Origin: Tropicimonas sediminicola
Lineage (GTDB): Bacteria > Pseudomonadota > Alphaproteobacteria > Rhodobacterales > Rhodobacteraceae
NCBI RefSeq assembly: GCF_900188335.1
Contig: NZ_FZOY01000004.1
Span: 248,001-312,000 of the forward strand
Length of the DNA stretch: 64,000 bases
Direction of reading: 5' to 3'
Position numbers and translations under genes: made by a program. Below the pieces are notes generated by a model. It did no database searches and had not been told where the DNA came from. It saw only the letters and a program-made list of their open reading frames with translations. Each line of letters begins with the position of its first letter. Position 1 is the first letter of the stretch. This document shows positions 10,251-44,482 of the stretch, in pieces.

Positions 10251-10282
10251 TTCTTCTGTCCGGAAATATCCCCGCCGGAGGC
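10251..10282 (-). repeat. GGATATTTCCGGACAG intergenic motif, copy 1
   Basis: Read on the minus strand: GCCTCCGGCGGGGATATTTC then CGGACAGAAGAA, in the 104-base gap between dgcN and dgcA and oriented with them. It matches the copy at 44451-44482 at 31 of 32 positions. Confidence 0.8.
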
Positions 10283-16595: not shown

Positions 16596-17321
16596 ATGAT
16601 CCAGTACCTGCGTTCGCTCATCTTCGTGGGCCAGATCTACCTGATGATGGCGTTGATGGCCGTTGCCTTCACGCCCTTCGTGCTGTTCTACCGGCCGCTC
16701 GCCTACACCGCCTGCCGCACCTGGTGCCGCTGGGTCCGCTGGAGCGCCGCCTGGATGGTCGGCCTGCGCACCGAGGTGCGGGGCGAGGTGCCGACGCAGG
16801 AATGCCTGATCGCCTCGAAGCACCAGTCCTTCCTCGACATCATCCTGATCGTCTCCGAGGTGCCCCGGCCGAAATTCATCATGAAACGCGAACTGCAATG
16901 GGTGCCGATCGTCGGCTGGTACGCGAAATGGATCGGCTGCGTTCCGGTGGATCGCGGCCGGCGCACCGAGGCGATCCGCCAGATGAAAGAGGGGGTCGCG
17001 GCGGGTCGGGCCAAGCCGGGCCAGCTGATCATCTATCCGCAAGGGACGCGGGTCGCGCCCGGCGTCTCGAGGCCCTACAAGATCGGCGCGGGAATCCTGT
17101 ATGAAGAGCTTGAACAGGGGTGCGTGCCCGCGGCCACGAACGTCGGCGTCTTCTGGCCGCGCACCGGGATCGGTCGCAAACCCGGCCTCGCGGTGGTCGA
17201 GTTCCTCGATCCGATCGGCCCCGGCCTGCCCCAGACGGAGTTCATGAAGAAGCTTGAAAGCGTGGTCGAGACCGCTTCCGACCGCCTTATGGCAGACGCA
17301 GGCTTCACGCCACTCCCCTGA
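16596..17321 (+). CDS. plsC: 1-acyl-sn-glycerol-3-phosphate acyltransferase
   Basis: Membrane-bound acyltransferase making phosphatidic acid from lysophosphatidic acid, 241 residues. An N-terminal hydrophobic segment (about 8-32) anchors it. The catalytic HX4D motif is KHQSFLD (His76, Asp81); KFIMKRELQWVPIVGWY and the YPQGTR block, the substrate-phosphate site, follow in the usual order. It is the third gene of ftsE-ftsX-plsC, starting one base after ftsX. The 222-bp repeat element begins 19 bases after its stop codon and may serve as its 3-prime boundary. Confidence 0.93.
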   Translation: MIQYLRSLIFVGQIYLMMALMAVAFTPFVLFYRPLAYTACRTWCRWVRWSAAWMVGLRTEVRGEVPTQECLIASKHQSFLDIILIVSEVPRPKFIMKRELQWVPIVGWYAKWIGCVPVDRGRRTEAIRQMKEGVAAGRAKPGQLIIYPQGTRVAPGVSRPYKIGAGILYEELEQGCVPAATNVGVFWPRTGIGRKPGLAVVEFLDPIGPGLPQTEFMKKLESVVETASDRLMADAGFTPLP

Positions 17322-17340
17322 AAAGGCCAGCGACGGAGCG

Positions 17341-17562
17341 CTCCCGCCTGTCTTCGATGCCTTGCGGCATCTCATCCCGTTGGGCCGGGCAGGCTTCGCC
17401 TGCATCCACTCCCTGAAGCGACCTCAGCAAGCTCGAGCATCCGTGCGCCGCGGCCACCTTCACCTGTATGGAAATATCCCCGCCGGAGGCACCGCGCGCG
17501 GCGCGCGCGGCCCGGCCCAACGGGAGGAGGCGCATCTTTGATGCGCTGACGACGGGCGGGAG
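17341..17562 (-). repeat. 222-bp inverted-repeat element, copy A
   Basis: It is bounded by inverted arms 17341-17386 and 17514-17562. Each arm runs from CTCCCGCC-GTC to CCCGTTGGGCC (as its reverse complement on the right) and carries its own hairpin (GATGCC-TTGC-GGCATC on the left, GCGCATC-TTT-GATGCGC on the right). Between them are a GC hairpin (17492-17510) and the GGGGATATTTC motif (minus strand, 17471-17490). It fills the gap between the convergent genes plsC and puuD. A same-length partner is at 20918-21139. Confidence 0.85.
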
Positions 17563-17586
17563 CCTCTGCCCCTCGCCAGAACGACT

Positions 17587-18828
17587 TCAGCCCTCAAGAC
17601 CGGCCTCGTACCAGCGGACAACCGTGGCCCGGTCGGCCGGTTCCATGAAGGAGGCGCGTCCCGGCGGCATTGCGCGCGTCACGCCAGATTGCAGGTAGAT
17701 CTCCGTCGCGTGCCGCGCAACGTCGCTCTCGGTCACCAGCTTCACGCCGCGTGGCGTGACCGGAATGCCCTCCCACACTGGTTCCGGCGCATGGCACATC
17801 GAACAATTGCCCTGCACGATGTCGTAGACCTCGGCAAAGCCCTCGGCCTCCACGAACCGCTGTTGGGCCGGGCTGAGCGCGCTCTCTTCCCAGCCGCCAT
17901 CCTCGCCATAGATCGGCGCCATCGAGAGCCAGACGATCGCGGCAAAGAGCAGCGCCGTTGCACCCCAGGTCCAGAGCGGGCCCTTCTTGGGGAAGTCGCT
18001 GGCGTGGAACGAGTTGAAATAGTGCCGGATAGTCACCCCCATCAGGAAGACAAGGCTGGCGATCACCCAGTTCCACTCGCTCGCGAAGGCCAGCGGATAG
18101 TGGTTGGACAGCATCAGGAACAGGACCGGCAGCGTCAGGTAGTTGTTATGGGTCGAGCGCTGCTTGGCGATCTTGCCGTATTTCGCATCCGGCACGCGCC
18201 CGGCCTTCAGATCCTCCACCACGATCTTCTGGTTCGGGATGATGATGAAGAACACATTGGCCGACATCACCGTGGCCGTGATCGCGCCGAGATGCAGCAT
18301 CGCCGCCCGCCCCGAGAAGACGTGGGTATAGGCGAAAGCCATGACGACGAGGATCAGGTAGAGCAGGAGCATCAGCTTGGTGTTGTCCTCGCCGAAGGGT
18401 GACTTGCAGATCCGGTCGTAGGCCACCCAGCCCAGGCCGAGCGAGGCCACCGAAATCAGGATCGCCAGCCAGGAGGGCATGTCGAGCACCTCCGGATCGA
18501 CCAGGAACAGGTCTGCGCCGAGGTAATAGACCAGGATCAGCATCGCGAATCCGCTGAGCCAGGTCGTATAGCTCTCCCACATGAACCAGATCAGGTGCTC
18601 GGGCAGCCGCGCCGGGGCGACTATGTACTTCTGGAGATGATAGAATCCGCCGCCATGCACCTGCCATTCCTCGCCGCCCACGCCCTCCGGCATGTCCGGC
18701 GCCTTCCTCAACCCGAGGTCGAGCGCGATGAAATAGAAGGATGACCCGATCCAGGCGATGCCCGCGATCACATGCAGCCATCGAACGGCAAGTTCCGCCC
18801 ACGCCATGAGAAAAGTCGTTTCAACCAA
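17587..18828 (-). CDS. puuD: Urate hydroxylase PuuD (membrane protein with cytochrome c domain)
   Basis: Membrane urate oxidase that converts urate to 5-hydroxyisourate, passing electrons to its own haem domain. The 413-residue protein has about eight membrane helices (WLHVIAGIAWIGSSFYFIALDLGL at the start; HGGGFYHLQKY and STHNNYLTLPVLFLMLSNHYP are family blocks). A C-terminal cytochrome c domain has CSMCH (Cys342, Cys345, His346) and a likely axial Met387 in MPPG. The start is inferred as the TTG at 18826-18828, because GGAGG lies six bases before it; ATG 18807 is seven codons inside and has no ribosome site. Divergent to allantoicase, consistent with purine breakdown. Confidence 0.92.
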   Translation of the reverse strand: MVETTFLMAWAELAVRWLHVIAGIAWIGSSFYFIALDLGLRKAPDMPEGVGGEEWQVHGGGFYHLQKYIVAPARLPEHLIWFMWESYTTWLSGFAMLILVYYLGADLFLVDPEVLDMPSWLAILISVASLGLGWVAYDRICKSPFGEDNTKLMLLLYLILVVMAFAYTHVFSGRAAMLHLGAITATVMSANVFFIIIPNQKIVVEDLKAGRVPDAKYGKIAKQRSTHNNYLTLPVLFLMLSNHYPLAFASEWNWVIASLVFLMGVTIRHYFNSFHASDFPKKGPLWTWGATALLFAAIVWLSMAPIYGEDGGWEESALSPAQQRFVEAEGFAEVYDIVQGNCSMCHAPEPVWEGIPVTPRGVKLVTESDVARHATEIYLQSGVTRAMPPGRASFMEPADRATVVRWYEAGLEG

Positions 18829-19159
18829 GATGCGCCTCCAGATCCTGTCTGACGAAGAGTTCAGCAAACCCGCCCCGATATCAAACCGAAACCGCCTCCT
18901 CGCGCCGCCTGTTGCGCGATCGTTCGGCATTCGACTAGGAATTGGGCGCACCACGCGGCGGCGGTGCGAACTCCCGGCAGCGGGCCCACATCCGTCGCGC
19001 GGCCTCTTGTCTTGCCTGCAGCCGCGGGCCAGAACATCCGACAACCAGACCGCGACGATACCGTTCGGCCCCGACGTCCCTCCGAAGCCGCGAATGGCCC
19101 CCGAGGCAGAGGGGCGGAACGTGCCGGACCGGCCCCGCCAACGACCGAAAGACACCCCG
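18829..19159. other. Divergent intergenic region, puuD/alc
   Basis: A 331-base gap between the two divergent purine-catabolism genes, which should hold both promoters. The alc frame stays open through it, but the translated residues are Arg/Pro-rich and match no family, and no ribosome site precedes any start. I see no clear operator palindrome. Confidence 0.6.
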
Positions 19160-20170
19160 ATGCCCACGATCGAATCCCTCAACGCCGACGTTCCGCTCTA
19201 CGCCCGGACCGGCATCAACCTCGCGTCCGCCGGTCTCGGCGCGCGCGGACTGTCCTCCACCAACGAGTTCTTCGCGCCGCTGGAACGCATGCTGGCCGAC
19301 GGCGAGCCGGTCTTCATCGAGGGCAAGTTCGATGACCACGGCAAGTGGATGGACGGCTGGGAGACCCAGCGGCGGCGCGATGGCGGCCACGATCACGCCG
19401 TGATCAAGCTCGCCGCACCTGGCCGCATCCTCGGCTTCGACGTCGACACGCGGCATTTCACCGGCAACTACGCCCCGGCCTGCCGGATCGAGGCCGCCAG
19501 CACCCGCGAGGTCACCGAGGAGACCAGCTGGGCGCAGATCCTGCCGCACCGGGCGCTCGGGCCGGACGGACATCACTTCTTCCGCTGCGAAAGCTTCGAA
19601 AGCTGGACCCACATCCGGCTGCACATTTACCCCGATGGCGGCGTGGCGCGGCTGCGCGTCTTCGGCGTGCCGGAACTCGACCCGACGCATGACGGGCAGG
19701 AGATCGACCTTGCCGCCTCGCTGAACGGCGGCCGCATCCTGGCGATGTCGGACGCCCATTACGGCGACTACAACCGCCTGCTCGCGCCCGGGCGCGGCAC
19801 CAACATGGGCGACGGCTGGGAAACCCGCCGTCGGCGCGAGCCGGGGTACGACTGGATGGTGATCGCGCTCGGGGCGCGTGGCGTCGTCGAACGGATCGAG
19901 GTCGATACGGCGCATTTCAAGGGCAACTACCCCGACCGCTGCTCGCTTCAGGCGGCGGACATGCTGAACTTCGGCGACGGGCTGACCGATGCGCTGGTCA
20001 CCGACTCGATGTTCTGGAAAACCTTGCTGCCGGAGCGCAAGCTCGGCCCCGACGCGATTCACGACTTCCGCGAAGGGCTGGAAGCGCTCGGCCCGGTGAC
20101 CCACGTGCGCTTCAACATCCACCCCGATGGCGGGGTCAGCCGGCTGCGCCTGTTCGGACGGCCGGCCTGA
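19160..20170 (+). CDS. alc: Allantoicase
   Basis: Hydrolyses allantoate to ureidoglycolate and urea in purine breakdown. The 336-residue protein is a tandem duplication of a beta-sandwich domain: the first copy has KWMDGWETQRRRDGGHDHAVIKLA and DVDTRHFTGNYAP, the second has NMGDGWETRRRREPGYDWMVIALG and EVDTAHFKGNYPD, and both end in RLHIYPDGGVARLR / RFNIHPDGGVSRLR. This internal repeat is the hallmark of allantoicases. The ATG at 19160 fits the family N terminus (SLNADVPLYARTGINLAS) although its ribosome site is weak. Other pathway genes (allantoinase, ureidoglycolate lyase) are not in the window. Confidence 0.95.
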   Translation: MPTIESLNADVPLYARTGINLASAGLGARGLSSTNEFFAPLERMLADGEPVFIEGKFDDHGKWMDGWETQRRRDGGHDHAVIKLAAPGRILGFDVDTRHFTGNYAPACRIEAASTREVTEETSWAQILPHRALGPDGHHFFRCESFESWTHIRLHIYPDGGVARLRVFGVPELDPTHDGQEIDLAASLNGGRILAMSDAHYGDYNRLLAPGRGTNMGDGWETRRRREPGYDWMVIALGARGVVERIEVDTAHFKGNYPDRCSLQAADMLNFGDGLTDALVTDSMFWKTLLPERKLGPDAIHDFREGLEALGPVTHVRFNIHPDGGVSRLRLFGRPA

Positions 20171-20178
20171 GCCAAGGA

Positions 20179-20211
20179 CCGGCGCCGCGCCGTTCACGGC
20201 TCCGGCGCCGG
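20179..20211. terminator. Hairpin between convergent alc and pqiC
   Basis: CCGGCGCCG (20179-20187) pairs with CGGCGCCGG (20203-20211), with an inner GCCG-TTCA-CGGC stem. It lies between two converging stop codons. There is no T run, so termination is possible but not certain. Confidence 0.45.
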
Positions 20212-20220
20212 GCCCCTGAC

Positions 20221-20778
20221 CTAGATCCCGCGGGACGCGATCAGCCGCGCCAGGTCGCGCACGGCGACGGCCCGCGCGGCGGCAATGCCGGACGACCCGC
20301 TGTCGGGCGCGATCGGCGCGCTGACGTTGAACGTGCCGGAGTAGTCGCGCCCGGCGGAGAGCCGCGAAACGAAGTACTGCCCCGAAAGCCGGAAGCGGCC
20401 ATCGGCGCCGGCGACCATCTCGCTGACGCGCACGATCAGCCGCGCTTGCGGCAGGTCCTCGAAGGGCCAGGGCTCGGCAGCCACCCGTGCGCCGGTGAAG
20501 GCGGCGAGATGCTGGCTGAGCTCCATCGTCACGCCGCGCGCCGGATCATCGGCCCAGAGCGCCGAGGCATCCGCCTCGAGCGCGCCCCCCTCGCCCTCGC
20601 GCCAGATTTCCTCGGACTGGGCGTAGGTCGGCAGCGAGACCTCCCGCACCTCCAGTTGGGACACGGAGATCCCGATGCGATCCCCCGAAGCGACGGGCGC
20701 CGCGGCATACCGGACGGGCGGGGCGCTGCATGCGGTCAGCAACAGCGAAAAGGCGAGAGCGGGAAGCACGAGGCGCAT
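20221..20778 (-). CDS. pqiC: PqiC-like outer-membrane lipoprotein (ABC_trans_aux)
   Basis: A 185-residue lipoprotein of the ABC-type transport auxiliary family. The signal MRLVLPALAFSLLLTACS has a lipobox with Cys17, so it should be lipid-anchored in the outer membrane. The C-terminal part (ARAVAVRDLARLIASRGI) resembles the end of the DUF330/PqiC domain. In the Pqi system it forms the outer-membrane base for the PqiB channel that carries lipids across the periplasm. It is the last gene of the minus-strand pqi cluster but is separated from pqiB by 368 bases that contain a repeat element. The start ATG 20776-20778 is set by the signal peptide. Confidence 0.85.
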   Translation of the reverse strand: MRLVLPALAFSLLLTACSAPPVRYAAAPVASGDRIGISVSQLEVREVSLPTYAQSEEIWREGEGGALEADASALWADDPARGVTMELSQHLAAFTGARVAAEPWPFEDLPQARLIVRVSEMVAGADGRFRLSGQYFVSRLSAGRDYSGTFNVSAPIAPDSGSSGIAAARAVAVRDLARLIASRGI

Positions 20779-21146
20779 GACTGTCCGATCGGTCTGAGAT
20801 TTTTCGTTCGGCGCAGCATAGCGGCGCGGCGGGTGGCGGCAAGATGCTGCGACGGCGCATTTCATCGGGATGGAACACAGGGCCAGACCCCGGGCAACTG
20901 AAAGCTGCAAAGCGGCGCTCCCGCCCGTCTTCGATGCCTTGCGGCATCTCATCCCGTTGGGCCAGGCAGGCTTCGCCTGCTTGCCCACCACCCTAGGTTT
21001 CAGCAACCACCTCCAGCCGAGCCGCGCCGCCATTTCACCAGCCTCGAAACATCCCCGCCGGAGGCGCCGCGCGCGGAACGCGCGCGGCCTGGCCCAACGG
21101 GAGGAGCCGCATCTGCGATGCGGTGACGACGGGCGGGAGCCCTGCC
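20779..21146. other. Gap inside the pqi operon holding a repeat element
   Basis: The 368 bases between pqiB and pqiC are occupied mainly by repeat copy B (20918-21139). The remaining 139 bases directly before pqiC show no gene; a promoter for pqiC could lie here. Confidence 0.7.
20918..21139 (-). repeat. 222-bp inverted-repeat element, copy B
   Basis: Arms 20918-20963 and 21091-21139; overall length identical to copy A. The left arms agree at 45 of 46 positions and the right arms at 45 of 49. In the right-arm hairpin the closing pair changes from G-C to C-G (CCGCATC-TGC-GATGCGG), a compensatory change; the other two differences are in the loop. The central part has diverged apart from the GC hairpin and the GGGGATGTTTC motif (21046-21065). 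It begins seven bases after the pqiB stop. Confidence 0.85.
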
Positions 21147-23540
21147 CTACTTGCCGGTGACCAGAGCGTTCGGCTTGCGCTCCAGCATCCGGGCCAGCGA
21201 ACGCACCGAATCCGCCGCGCGGGCGACCTGGCGCAATGCCTCGCGGGCGTCGCGGTTGAGCGCGCCGGTGTCCGACAGGCCCGCCAGCGCCAGCTGGGCC
21301 TCGCGCAACACCTGTTCGGTCTGCTGCACCAGCCCGGGCAGATCGTCCGTGACCTGCGCCACCGAGCTCGCCGCCTCGCGCGCGGACGCGAGAGTGGCAT
21401 TGACGTTCTCCACGGTGCCGCCCTCGCGGAGTTCGGCCAGTGCCGCGCCCATCTCGTCGAGTGCCGCGTTGAGGCTCTGCGGCAGCGCTTGCGCGGCCTC
21501 GGTTCCGATCAGCGCCTCGGCGCTCTCGACCAGCGAAGTCACCTCGTTGACCAGCGCGTCGAGTTCCATCGCCTCGGCCTTGGCGGCCACGGCCTCGATC
21601 TGCTCGACGAGCGCCGGCACGCCCTCGACCGCGGCGCTCACGCCGTCGGCCGCGCGGCCAGCGGCGGCGATCGCCTCGTTGAGCTGCGCCGCTGCATCGG
21701 CCTCGTTGAATTCCGCGATCAGCGAGGTGGCTTCGGTGACCGCCTTCTCGACCTCTCCCAGTGCCTGCGTCAGCTGCGCGGGCAATGCCTTGGCGGCCTC
21801 TGTCCCGAGAATGCCGTTCGCGTTCTCCACGAGCCCGGTCGCCTGCGCCAGCAGCGCCTCCAGGTCCAGCGCCTCGGCCTTCGCAGCCACGCCCTCGATA
21901 CGCTCCAGCAGAGCAGGCACGTCCTGCACCGCATCGGCAACGCTCGCCGCCGCGGCACTGGCGTTGTCCACCGCGTCGATCAGCTTGGCAACGCCTTCAC
22001 GCTCCTGCAGATCGTCGAGCACGGCGATCATCTGGTCGGCGATGCCGGTCAGACGGTCCGGCAATTCCTTCAGCGCCTCGGAGCCGATCACCCCCCGAAC
22101 GTCGGTCACGACGCCGCGGACTTCGGCGGGCAGCGACTGGATGTCGTCGCTCGACACCAGCGCGGCGGCATTCTCCATGAAAGTCGAAACGGATTGCAGG
22201 AGCTCCTCGATGGGCAGCTCGTTGACCCGCTTCAGCAGGCCTTCTGCCGATGCCGTCACGCCGGTCAGATCCGCCTCGACGCTTGGGAAGATCGGATAGG
22301 GCTCGGCCTCGCGCATGAAGGTCGCGGGCGCGGCGTCGGGGATCTGGACCATCTCGATCTTCAGTCCGCCGGTCAGCAGCGAAGCCTTGGAGAGCCGGGC
22401 CCGCCAGCCTTCGGAAACCGCCTGCTCGAAGAAATCGAGCACGTCCTCGTCCTCCGTTGCATCCTGCCCCAGCTGGAGTTGCTCCAGTTCGATCGCCAGG
22501 ACAACGACCAGCCGGACGCGGTCGTCGCCAAACTGTTCCGGATCGACCTTGCCGGTGAGCCCGACGACCTCGCCGATCTGGAGCCCGCGCAGGGTAACCG
22601 GCGCGCCAACGGTGAGCCCGTTCACGTTCTCCTCGAAGACCATCGCGATCTCCAGGGTGCCGCCGTCGGCGGTCGTCCCGTCGAACAGGCTGGTGCGCGC
22701 GTCGTCCTGGTTGCCGAAGACCGCGAAGCGCGCACCATCCGCCACGGGCGCCCCGCCCGAGACGACGGTCTCGAAGCTGATGCCGCCGGAGATCAGCGCC
22801 GAGATGCTCTCGACATCGACCGTCGCGCCGCCAGCGCCTAGGTTGAACGAGAAACCCGAGGCGTCCCAGAAGCGGCTGCGGCTGGTTAGGAGCTGGTCAT
22901 GAGGCGCGGCGACAAAGGCCTCGGCGGTGATCGTCACCCCGTCGGAGGAAAGCTGCGGGCGGCCGACGCGGCCGACCTCCAGCCCCTTGAACAGGATCGG
23001 CGTGCCCTCGCTCAGGCCCTTGCCGGTGTTGGTGGTCAGCACGATCCGCCGCCCCTTCTCGTCCGGGCGGGACACCGGGCGCTGCTCGAGACCGGTGAAA
23101 TGTCTCTCAAGTCCGCCGGGCACACCGTCCCAGCTGCCCTCAATGTAGACCCCGCTCAGCACGGTATTGAGCCCGGAGATGCCGCGGGCCGAGACTTCCG
23201 GCTCGACCACCCAGAAGACCGCGCCGGAATCGACGTAGGGCTCCACCTCCTTGTCGAGCCGGACATGGGCGACGACGGCGCTTAGATCCTCGGTGAAAGT
23301 CACTTCCTCGACGACCCCGACCGAAACCTCGCGATAGCGAAGGTGGGTCTGTTCGGCCACGATGCCAGAGGCGTCGGCAAAGGCGATCTCGATCAGCGCG
23401 CCACGGTTCTGCAGGCTGTTCCAGGCAATGCCGAGCGCGATCGCCAAGGCAACGATCGGGATGACCCACACGATGGACACCCGGTCGAGCAGGCTGCGCT
23501 TGGCCGGCTTTACCGGGGTCTGGGGGATGTGGTCGGTCAC
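21147..23540 (-). CDS. pqiB: PqiB-type intermembrane lipid transport protein (MlaD/MCE domains)
   Basis: A 797-residue inner-membrane-anchored protein. One membrane helix (about 23-42, SIVWVIPIVALAIALGIAW) is followed by MCE/MlaD domains, including GIVAEQTHLRYREVSVG, TNTGKGLSEGTPILFKGLEVG and GAPVTLRGLQIGEVVGL, giving the three MCE repeats expected for PqiB. From about residue 450 to the end it is a long helical region with at least two near-copies of an AVAAKAEALDLDALV...LVE-A--ILGTEAA-ALP unit, longer than in the E. coli protein (546 residues). MCE hexamers with such helices form needle-like channels across the periplasm. The GTG start overlaps the pqiA stop by four bases. Confidence 0.9.
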   Translation of the reverse strand: MTDHIPQTPVKPAKRSLLDRVSIVWVIPIVALAIALGIAWNSLQNRGALIEIAFADASGIVAEQTHLRYREVSVGVVEEVTFTEDLSAVVAHVRLDKEVEPYVDSGAVFWVVEPEVSARGISGLNTVLSGVYIEGSWDGVPGGLERHFTGLEQRPVSRPDEKGRRIVLTTNTGKGLSEGTPILFKGLEVGRVGRPQLSSDGVTITAEAFVAAPHDQLLTSRSRFWDASGFSFNLGAGGATVDVESISALISGGISFETVVSGGAPVADGARFAVFGNQDDARTSLFDGTTADGGTLEIAMVFEENVNGLTVGAPVTLRGLQIGEVVGLTGKVDPEQFGDDRVRLVVVLAIELEQLQLGQDATEDEDVLDFFEQAVSEGWRARLSKASLLTGGLKIEMVQIPDAAPATFMREAEPYPIFPSVEADLTGVTASAEGLLKRVNELPIEELLQSVSTFMENAAALVSSDDIQSLPAEVRGVVTDVRGVIGSEALKELPDRLTGIADQMIAVLDDLQEREGVAKLIDAVDNASAAAASVADAVQDVPALLERIEGVAAKAEALDLEALLAQATGLVENANGILGTEAAKALPAQLTQALGEVEKAVTEATSLIAEFNEADAAAQLNEAIAAAGRAADGVSAAVEGVPALVEQIEAVAAKAEAMELDALVNEVTSLVESAEALIGTEAAQALPQSLNAALDEMGAALAELREGGTVENVNATLASAREAASSVAQVTDDLPGLVQQTEQVLREAQLALAGLSDTGALNRDAREALRQVARAADSVRSLARMLERKPNALVTGK

Positions 23541-34763: not shown

Positions 34764-34810
34764 CCGGGGGCCAGCCCCCGGACCCCCGGGATATTTTGGG
34801 ACAGAAGAAC
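34764..34810 (+). repeat. GGATATTTTGGGACAGAAGAA intergenic motif with hairpin, copy 4
   Basis: Hairpin CCGGGGG-CCAG-CCCCCGG (34764-34781), then a GC stretch and GGATATTTTGGGACAG, AGAAC. It ends directly against the ATG of the di-heme gene, so its purine-rich end may serve as the ribosome site. Confidence 0.7.
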
Positions 34811-44450: not shown

Positions 44451-44482
44451 TTCTTCTGTCCGGAAATATCCCCGTCGGAGGC
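44451..44482 (-). repeat. GGATATTTCCGGACAG intergenic motif, copy 6
   Basis: On the minus strand GCCTCCGACGGGGATATTTC, CGGACAGAAGAA; 31 of 32 positions match copy 1. It lies between the binding protein and permease genes, in their direction. Confidence 0.8.

Follow-up and report, generated by a model that had tools for sequence, protein, structure and literature searches.

What are the two 222-bp elements at 17341-17562 and 20918-21139 of the window, the 64,000-nt stretch of Tropicimonas sediminicola DNA analysed here? A sequence-only reading had offered two answers, non-autonomous mobile elements or regulators in 3' untranslated regions, and had described two copies of equal length with their parts in the same order. 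That description is correct. When copy 2 serves as a 228-base query, copy 1 matches it over bases 1-227 (E=1e-59), a likeness far above chance. Copy 1 lies between convergent genes and copy 2 between two co-oriented genes; the minus-strand stop codons said to adjoin the elements are indeed there, 24 bases (copy 1) and 7 bases (copy 2) past their ends.

Layout of the elements and of their unit

The left and right arm of each element are one module in opposite orientations. The 222-bp form is an inverted dimer of one ~85-nt unit, and the dimer is not itself the unit. Each unit consists of the constant CTCCCGCCC, a variable hairpin (P2), the constant TCCCGTTGGGC and a second variable hairpin (P3). 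A search of the window with a covariance model, R1, returned four units at E<=2.1e-9, two of them, and likewise their two partners, being among the source sequences of R1; the next match had E=0.39.

In copy 1, the type 2 unit occupies 17338..17420 on the minus strand (57.1 bits, E=2.1e-9). Sequence and fold place its P2 hairpin, GATGCC-TTGC-GGCATC, at 17356..17371, between the constant CTCCCGCCT that starts at 17341 and the constant TTGGGC at 17380-17385; its P3 hairpin, GCAGGC-TTC-GCCTGC, follows at 17389..17403. The B motif TTCACCTGTATGGAAATATCCCCGCCGGAGGC (minus strand GGCGGGGATATTTCC) spans 17459..17490. The type 1 unit, at 17479..17565 on the plus strand (89.5 bits, E=1.1e-15), carries P3 at 17492-17510, GCCCAACGGGA at 17515-17525, the P2 hairpin GCGCATC-TTT-GATGCGC at 17530..17546 and GACGACGGGCGGGAG at 17548-17562. 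Copy 2 repeats this layout, with a type 2 unit at 20915..20997 (minus strand, 59.6 bits, E=7.1e-10) whose P2 hairpin GATGCC-TTGC-GGCATC and P3 hairpin GCAGGC-TTC-GCCTGC, again placed by sequence and fold, lie at 20933..20948 and 20966..20980, the B motif at 21034..21065, and a type 1 unit at 21056..21142 (plus strand, 84.0 bits, E=1.3e-14) with P3 at 21066-21088, the P2 hairpin CCGCATC-TGC-GATGCGG at 21107..21123 and GACGACGGGCGGGAG at 21125-21139. The compensatory change claimed for the right arm is exact: its P2 closes with G-C in copy 1 and with C-G in copy 2, and the remaining right-arm P2 differences lie in the loop only. Relatives of the B motif also occur apart from the unit, at 10251 and 44451 of the window.

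As a single strand, each window dimer folds into one large branched hairpin (two pairs folded). Folding of the 228-nt pair gives z -5.4 for copy 1 (plus strand, as DNA) and z -7.9 for copy 2 (minus strand, as RNA), and the four single units that were folded surpass their shuffles by a modest margin only (z -0.4 to -2.4).

Hairpin shape and hairpin sequence

After removal of 3 of 211 units that had no recognisable anchors, 208 remained, of which 129 have a core of exactly 48 nt; covariation was counted in the 113 distinct cores among these, which were thinned to 87 for the counts of P1 extensions, G-U and A-C pairs, and P3. In P2, 105 cells changed on both sides compared with 32.2 in shuffles (0/500), and this number falls to 8-33 when the partner is slid. 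P2 and P3 were both built into R1, so that the P3 covariation figure is biased upward. For P2, a blind set of copies found by their constant segments alone is free of that bias. It holds 77 distinct inner sequences with 51 distinct stems, and a Watson-Crick stem of at least 5 pairs forms in 77% of them, against 8.7% in shuffles (75 of 80 loci used; L224, L238, L246, L279 and L280 excluded). The proposal that compensation maintains the hairpin thus holds over many copies, the blind set included, and fails for part of the stems at sites shared between species. There, 19 of 68 inner stem cells switch between paired and unpaired against 9 that change on both sides, so stems mutating without compensation, named beforehand as the outcome that would count against the proposal, do occur in part.

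An outer stem, P1 (GCCC with GGGC, plus extensions), is attractive in single copies. We rejected it as unsupported because it has no two-sided change and its pair 9-45 is broken without compensation in 13 of 113 cores. Long P1 extensions occur in 2 of the 87 cores, no more than the mean of 3.3 that shuffled pairings give.

A repeat family at gene 3' ends

The absence of further copies in related genomes, which had been named as a possible refutation, is not observed: units occur, patchily across genera, in 25 of 198 family genomes with the T. sediminicola genome counted (24 of 197 without it), and in 8 of 9 Tropicimonas genomes, again counting its own; none was found in the genus member G004. 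The own genome holds at least 63 units by R1 search, a lower bound because scoring covered 150 of the 10178 first-look candidates, and 62 of these 63 rows, or all of them, match positions 1-87 of the 87-position model. The 228-base copy-2 query finds at least 51 own-genome places, itself included (40 of 165 candidates scored). The sets from G002, G006 and G007 comprise 32, 28 and 21 units out of 38, 34 and 42 matches; L090:1370-1464 (25.6 bits) and two duplicate rows in L336/L339 were left out of the counts, and further analysis made no use of a set of 89 matches from 75 named loci. None of 16 genomes from other families of the class was matched by DNA query. Units mostly stand alone (in the own genome, 50 of 66 are unpaired), yet mosaic combinations with B, A and P3 modules occur, and the 161 genus units include 10 inverted pairs with constant ends outward, plus 4 abutting pairs. 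A type 1 unit is paired with a type 2 unit in 7 of the 10 outward pairs by script, and in one more by eye. In G013, which belongs to another genus, near-identical copies of the unit sit in flanks that fail to align; the unit can therefore spread.

The units crowd the 3' ends of genes and avoid starts. Among own-genome gaps of at least 100 nt, those with a unit number 24 convergent, 28 tandem and 3 divergent, and those without one 3, 43 and 37 (Fisher p=7e-9 for enrichment in convergent gaps); the background gaps were taken from the window and from loci retrieved around units, rather than from a whole-genome sample, and genes were called with a home-made codon-score script. Across the 161 genus units, 80 of 120 stop-facing outer ends lie within 40 nt of the stop and 0 of 41 start-facing outer ends within 40 nt of a start, while 0 of 161 units lie inside a called gene (a unit counting as inside if over 40 nt of the gene extends to each side of it). 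The context count for the blind set omitted 16 of 80 copies that lie at the edges of contig stretches.

We conclude that the units probably form a family of REP/BIME-like intergenic palindromic repeats of Rhodobacteraceae/Roseobacteraceae, with REPIN-like dimers that are mostly of mixed type. PMC3733652 describes REPs as placed past the ends of genes, where the neighbouring open reading frames are convergent or co-oriented, and as in REP, BIME and REPIN families the unit is a multi-copy extragenic palindrome near the 3' ends of such genes. REP inverted doublets are described as folding into hairpins with compensatory changes (PMC3116915), and the Tropicimonas units likewise form inverted doublets that fold as a hairpin and carry such changes. 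Several features fit this assignment less well. According to PMC3116915, RAYT-linked REPs occur mostly as doublets, which do not predominate here. The unit, at ~85 nt with two hairpins, exceeds the 20-40 bp given for REPs in PMC3733652, and unlike REPs it is most conserved outside the stem, whose letters vary. The modest folding of single units and the uncompensated stem cells at shared sites also weigh against a REP-like family, as do the search results for plasmids (one match among 72,556 records) and viral contigs (no match by exact pattern), and we found no pair of empty and occupied sites with a clean insertion boundary. The family resembles known ones and may be an undescribed one; our open-access literature search found no earlier description of it, though one may still exist.

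REP-like repeats are often attributed to the action of a mobilising transposase. We considered mobilisation by RAYT and found no such gene: the own genome yields 0 Y1/RAYT transposases, which sets its units apart from RAYT-linked REPINs and GTAG REPs and counts against a REP-like family, and a Y1 transposase is present in only 2 of 10 further unit-bearing genomes. The GTAG tag is also missing from the consensus of the 113 cores. The notion of a non-autonomous mobile element is nonetheless borne out in kind by a multi-copy intergenic palindrome, a host genome in which Y1 was not detected, and recent spread of a relative in another genus (G013).

Rhizobium-specific intergenic mosaic elements (RIME) are intergenic palindrome mosaics of alphaproteobacteria; the Tropicimonas units resemble them in this general build. 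CGTC REPs, in the account of PMC3733652, are mainly alphaproteobacterial, form mixed dimers frequently in several families and have no dedicated transposase, three traits that the units share. The same account gives them a CGTC tag, an 8-9 bp stem starting with AT, a loop of 4-5 and a CCA tail, whereas in the units the letters in the place of CGTC are partly unconserved (core columns 9, 11 and 12 below 90%), the stem base is not AT, the main-type loop has 3 nt and the consensus lacks a CCA tail. Br-REP1 and Br-REP2 of Bradyrhizobium are described in PMC5082802 as an alphaproteobacterial mosaic of several palindromes located where the 3' UTRs of convergent genes overlap, a likeness to the units; Br-REP1 is given one stem-loop consensus, CCGGAATCTCGAGATTCCGG, in contrast to the widely varying stems of Tropicimonas.

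On this REP-like reading, the units would have been copied by a putative trans-acting enzyme that works on a folded single strand and may recognise the constant segments (CTCCCGCCC...GTTGGGCC). Once fixed beyond stop codons, units could persist because hairpins there would be harmless or mildly useful. By analogy with REPs elsewhere, which PMC5082802 credits with slowing 3'-to-5' decay and limiting read-through between convergent genes, a mild use might be either of these.

Selection, neutral upkeep or RNA-level function as possible explanations

An alternative that we regard as unlikely is that the units are a host element under selection, maintained copy by copy, whose constant segments bind a protein or ribonucleoprotein and which serves as a transcript-end insulator or 3'-end stabiliser. 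Enrichment between convergent genes agrees with this, and so do 26 sites shared between species, at which the two flanking genes, the orientation and the type of the unit all agree. At these sites the constant ends are 96% (CTCCCGCCC) and 100% (TTGGGC) identical, figures that are inflated because only detectable units enter the comparison and TTGGGC is an anchor; the 20 nt beside the units are no more alike (0.51) than at unrelated sites (0.50, best of 36 offsets). The patchy occurrence across genera and the result for G004 argue against a selected host element, as does the pqiB site, where 5 of the 9 genus genomes have a unit. Moreover, the likeness of shared-site cores (0.810, from the 17 of 48 shared-site pairs that have two 48-nt cores) scarcely exceeds that of cross-species pairs in general (0.795), a result that also fits homogenisation between copies.

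One could go further and envision the constant segments as a recognition code for a putative cellular factor, and the family as once-mobile, now domesticated insulators at dozens of Tropicimonas gene ends, selected for constant segments and hairpin shape and not for hairpin sequence; we hold this only as a speculation with the odds against it. The family joins variable stems and conserved outer segments with a host genome in which no Y1/RAYT transposase was found, and has copies at shared gene ends amid DNA that has diverged beyond recognition. It is therefore a test case of whether repeats lacking a transposase are relics, homogenised copies or gene-end elements that were adopted, and strains of this bacterial group can be cultivated.

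It is quite improbable that the units are neutral relics whose stems are kept paired by template switching during replication, with no selection on the hairpin. According to PMC8794818, hairpins can arise and be maintained by template switching, and the two-sided P2 changes, which run nearly always from one Watson-Crick pair to another, speak for this mechanism. Neutral upkeep leaves the near-constant outer segments beside diverged flanks unexplained, unless copies homogenise one another.

A regulator acting at the RNA level, read in the same direction as the upstream gene in the order stop, CTCCCGCCC, P2, CTCCTCCCGTTGGGCC and P3, seems to us distinctly improbable. The location claimed for a 3'-UTR regulator is supported, the CTCCC end lying a median of 20 nt past the stop in convergent gaps, and the two-sided stem changes also speak for one. 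An RNA-only regulator is made less likely by weak orientation bias, lack of wobble support and lack of an Rfam match, and by the modest folding of single units. Orientation to the gene in tandem gaps is 44 sense against 29 reversed (p=0.10), and 12 against 10 in other genera. The 87 cores contain few G-U pairs when taken as mRNA (5 against 25.8 by shuffling); A-C pairs, equivalent to G-U on the opposite strand, number 48 against 56.3. Over all copies, the helix continues past G-U in 2 of 15 cases and past A-C in 48 of 86, the latter somewhat exceeding other mismatches (42 of 109, p=0.02). Continuing A-C outnumbers G-U by 13 to 1 in the blind set, apparently favouring the D strand, but over all copies the strand test is not significant once corrected for composition (p=0.32). 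Wobble pairs thus offer nothing in favour of a folded mRNA-sense strand. Rfam has nothing at gathering threshold across the window; the three matches in 17300-21200 (E 0.31-2.4) are all far below it, including one that overlaps copy 2 at 21009-21073 (18.5 bits against a gathering score of 33.2). No intrinsic terminator (stem plus T-run) lies in the units, the sole site in 17200-21300 being 20779-20794; shuffles give 2.1 sites. We also considered CUCCUCCC, a motif of Rhodobacter sRNAs, and dropped it because the stretch varies between genera and a literature search found nothing.

That the 222-bp form is the full element, a DNA-transposon MITE of the classical kind whose terminal inverted repeats are CTCCCGCCC, is very unlikely: its palindromic ends and the equal 222-bp length of both window copies would suit a MITE, but by eye the G013 alignment shows no shared target-site duplication, the full 222 bp is matched in 3 of the 51 own-genome places among the matches listed and the others match in part, and in the genus set the 10 outward pairs have spacings anywhere between 16 and 108 nt.

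A REP-like family of modular units

The repeat family is what a REP- or BIME-like palindromic repeat looks like, and in its 222-bp form it is REPIN-like. Unit size sets it apart from the REP-type families compared, as do the position of its most conserved letters, which lie outside the stem, and the lack of any known mobiliser. We found no earlier description of it in the open-access literature.

The two 222-bp elements proposed by the sequence-only reading were borne out at 17341-17562 (copy 1) and 20918-21139 (copy 2); their component parts, lengths and distances from stop codons had all been described correctly, as had the stem change from G-C to C-G. Copy 1 is flanked by convergent genes, an acyltransferase (16596-17321, plus strand) and a urate oxidase N-terminal gene (17587-18771, minus strand), which we, like that reading, take to be PuuD. 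Copy 2 is flanked by two co-oriented genes, an ABC_trans_aux gene (20221-20778, minus strand; presumably PqiC-like) and an MlaD gene (21147-23540, minus strand; presumably PqiB-like). An allantoicase gene lies at 19163-20170 (plus strand as submitted); all five assignments are from Pfam.

With one copy as query, the T. sediminicola genome yielded at least 51 places, and among those listed the whole pair was covered in three, the remainder being fragments, mostly of a single arm. The left and right arms are one module in opposite orientations. This unit of about 85 nt reads, from its outer end inward, CTCCCGCCC-(GTCGTC)-P2-(CTCC)TCCCGTTGGGC-CGGGC-P3, where P2 and P3 are variable hairpins. Type 1 units carry GTCGTC/CTCCTCCC, usually with the stem GCATC-GATGC, and type 2 units carry GTCTTC/CTCATCCC. 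Further modules attach to the unit: the B motif and, optionally, a palindrome near GATCTTTCGTCCGAAAGATC. An optional palindrome with the sequence CGATCTTTCGTCCGAAAGATCG or close to it adjoins P3 in several copies of this genome (loci L012, L013, L016, L019 and L025). Among the 161 units collected from the genus, 10 inverted pairs have outward constant ends and a spacing of 16-108 nt; typing by script assigns 7 of these to the combination of type 1 and type 2, and inspection by eye adds the copy-1 pair as an eighth. A further four pairs abut through their constant ends. The two units of the copy-2 dimer have constant segments whose sequences are complementary at all but one position each, and the dimer as a whole folds into a branched hairpin.

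Pairing within the unit

Two-sided changes were found at all eight pairs of P2 among 113 distinct 48-nt cores, with 105 two-sided cells versus 32.2 in shuffled data (equalled in 0 of 500) and 8-33 when the pairing was slid. Because these copies came through a model containing the stem, the test was repeated on copies retrieved through their constant segments alone, which comprised 77 distinct inner sequences at 75 named loci. In this blind set, a Watson-Crick stem of at least 5 was present in 77% versus 8.7% of shuffled sequences, and 51 distinct P2 stems were seen. A P3 stem of at least 6 occurred in 172/208 units versus 27/208 shuffled, a figure biased upward by the inclusion of P3 in the search model. 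Wobble pairs gave no support to folding of the mRNA strand and singled out neither strand. A proposed outer stem, P1, was unsupported by pairing data.

Placement at gene ends

Within the genus set, 76 units lie between convergent genes, 44 in tandem sense, 29 in tandem reversed and 11 in divergent positions, and one lacks a second gene. T. sediminicola gaps of at least 100 nt that hold a unit are convergent in 24 cases, tandem in 28 and divergent in 3; for those that hold none, the counts are 3, 43 and 37. In the genus set, outer ends facing a stop codon lie within 40 nt of it in 80/120 cases, and those facing a start codon in 0/41; named genera are consistent (33/47 and 1/17). The same placement at genes is reported for REPs in section 15 of PMC3733652. 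By analogy with REP precedents, the unit hairpin would act as a barrier at transcript ends.

The motif GGCGGGGATATTTCCGGACAGAAG occurs in the window at 10253-10272, 44453-44472 and 17472-17484 (all minus strand) and, with two mismatches and from a separate search, at 34788-34807 (plus strand). It follows stop codons in all three window matches of the stricter pattern and in 6 of 7 intergenic matches at T. sediminicola loci. Some occurrences lack the repeat unit, and this may be a gene-end motif in its own right.

Range, age and spread

The covariance model of the unit returned at least 63 rows in T. sediminicola, a lower bound because scoring covered 150 of the 10178 first-look candidates, and between 0 and 63 per genome across the genus, with rows in 8 of 9 genomes. 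The exception, G004, has no unit at E<=0.001 though listed as 100% complete. Under stricter filters, units were present in 25/198 genomes and 24/197 genera of the family; a DNA query found none in 16 genomes of other families of the class. Scanning for the constant segments alone gave at least 115 stretches. Of the 80 listed, 77 bear names of Rhodobacteraceae or Roseobacteraceae; the titles of the other three name Nocardioides (two) and Bradyrhizobium (one). The repeat stands under an actinobacterial name at L279 and L280, both on JAHVJD010000003.1 (titled Nocardioides marinus DP1N28-1); the assembly may be mislabelled or mixed, as Leisingera is the title of records whose accession prefixes are neighbouring and whose strain names are similar.

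Matching both flanking genes and their orientation, 17/28 units of G006, 12/32 of G002 and 5/21 of G007, all of the same genus, have a partner in T. sediminicola. Adding unit type to the match leaves 48 pairs across the genus, which occupy 26 distinct sites. Identity at shared sites is 96% for CTCCCGCCC and 100% for TTGGGC, values inflated because only detectable units enter and TTGGGC served as an anchor; over the 20 nt adjoining the unit it is 0.51, versus 0.50 at unrelated sites. Shared-site cores are hardly closer than cross-species pairs generally (0.810, n=17, versus 0.795). These 17 core pairs have 68 inner stem cells, of which 38 are unchanged, 9 differ on both sides, 19 moved between paired and unpaired, and 2 are unpaired in both. 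Together these sequence comparisons indicate that the constant parts are under constraint or are homogenised among copies. At individual sites, stem changes are compensated only in part. At the pqiB site, units are present in 5 of 9 genus genomes, with none in G003, G004, G005 or G008.

A Y1 transposase was not found in T. sediminicola or in G013, a genome of another genus. Among the best dozen places in G013, copies of a composite mostly share 91-99% identity across some 150 nt or more and have flanks that fail to align; the family is thus able to spread. Two T. sediminicola units (L005 and L007, at 99269 and 99948 of contig C25) share an orientation, lie 679 bp apart and have similar flanks, and so look like a local duplication. 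At the G013 loci L181-L194, a B-like motif, CTTTCATCTCTTCGGCAAATACTCC, follows P3 in the sense opposite to that in the window's genus, and this part alone has matches of about 64 nt elsewhere in G013 at 96-100% identity.
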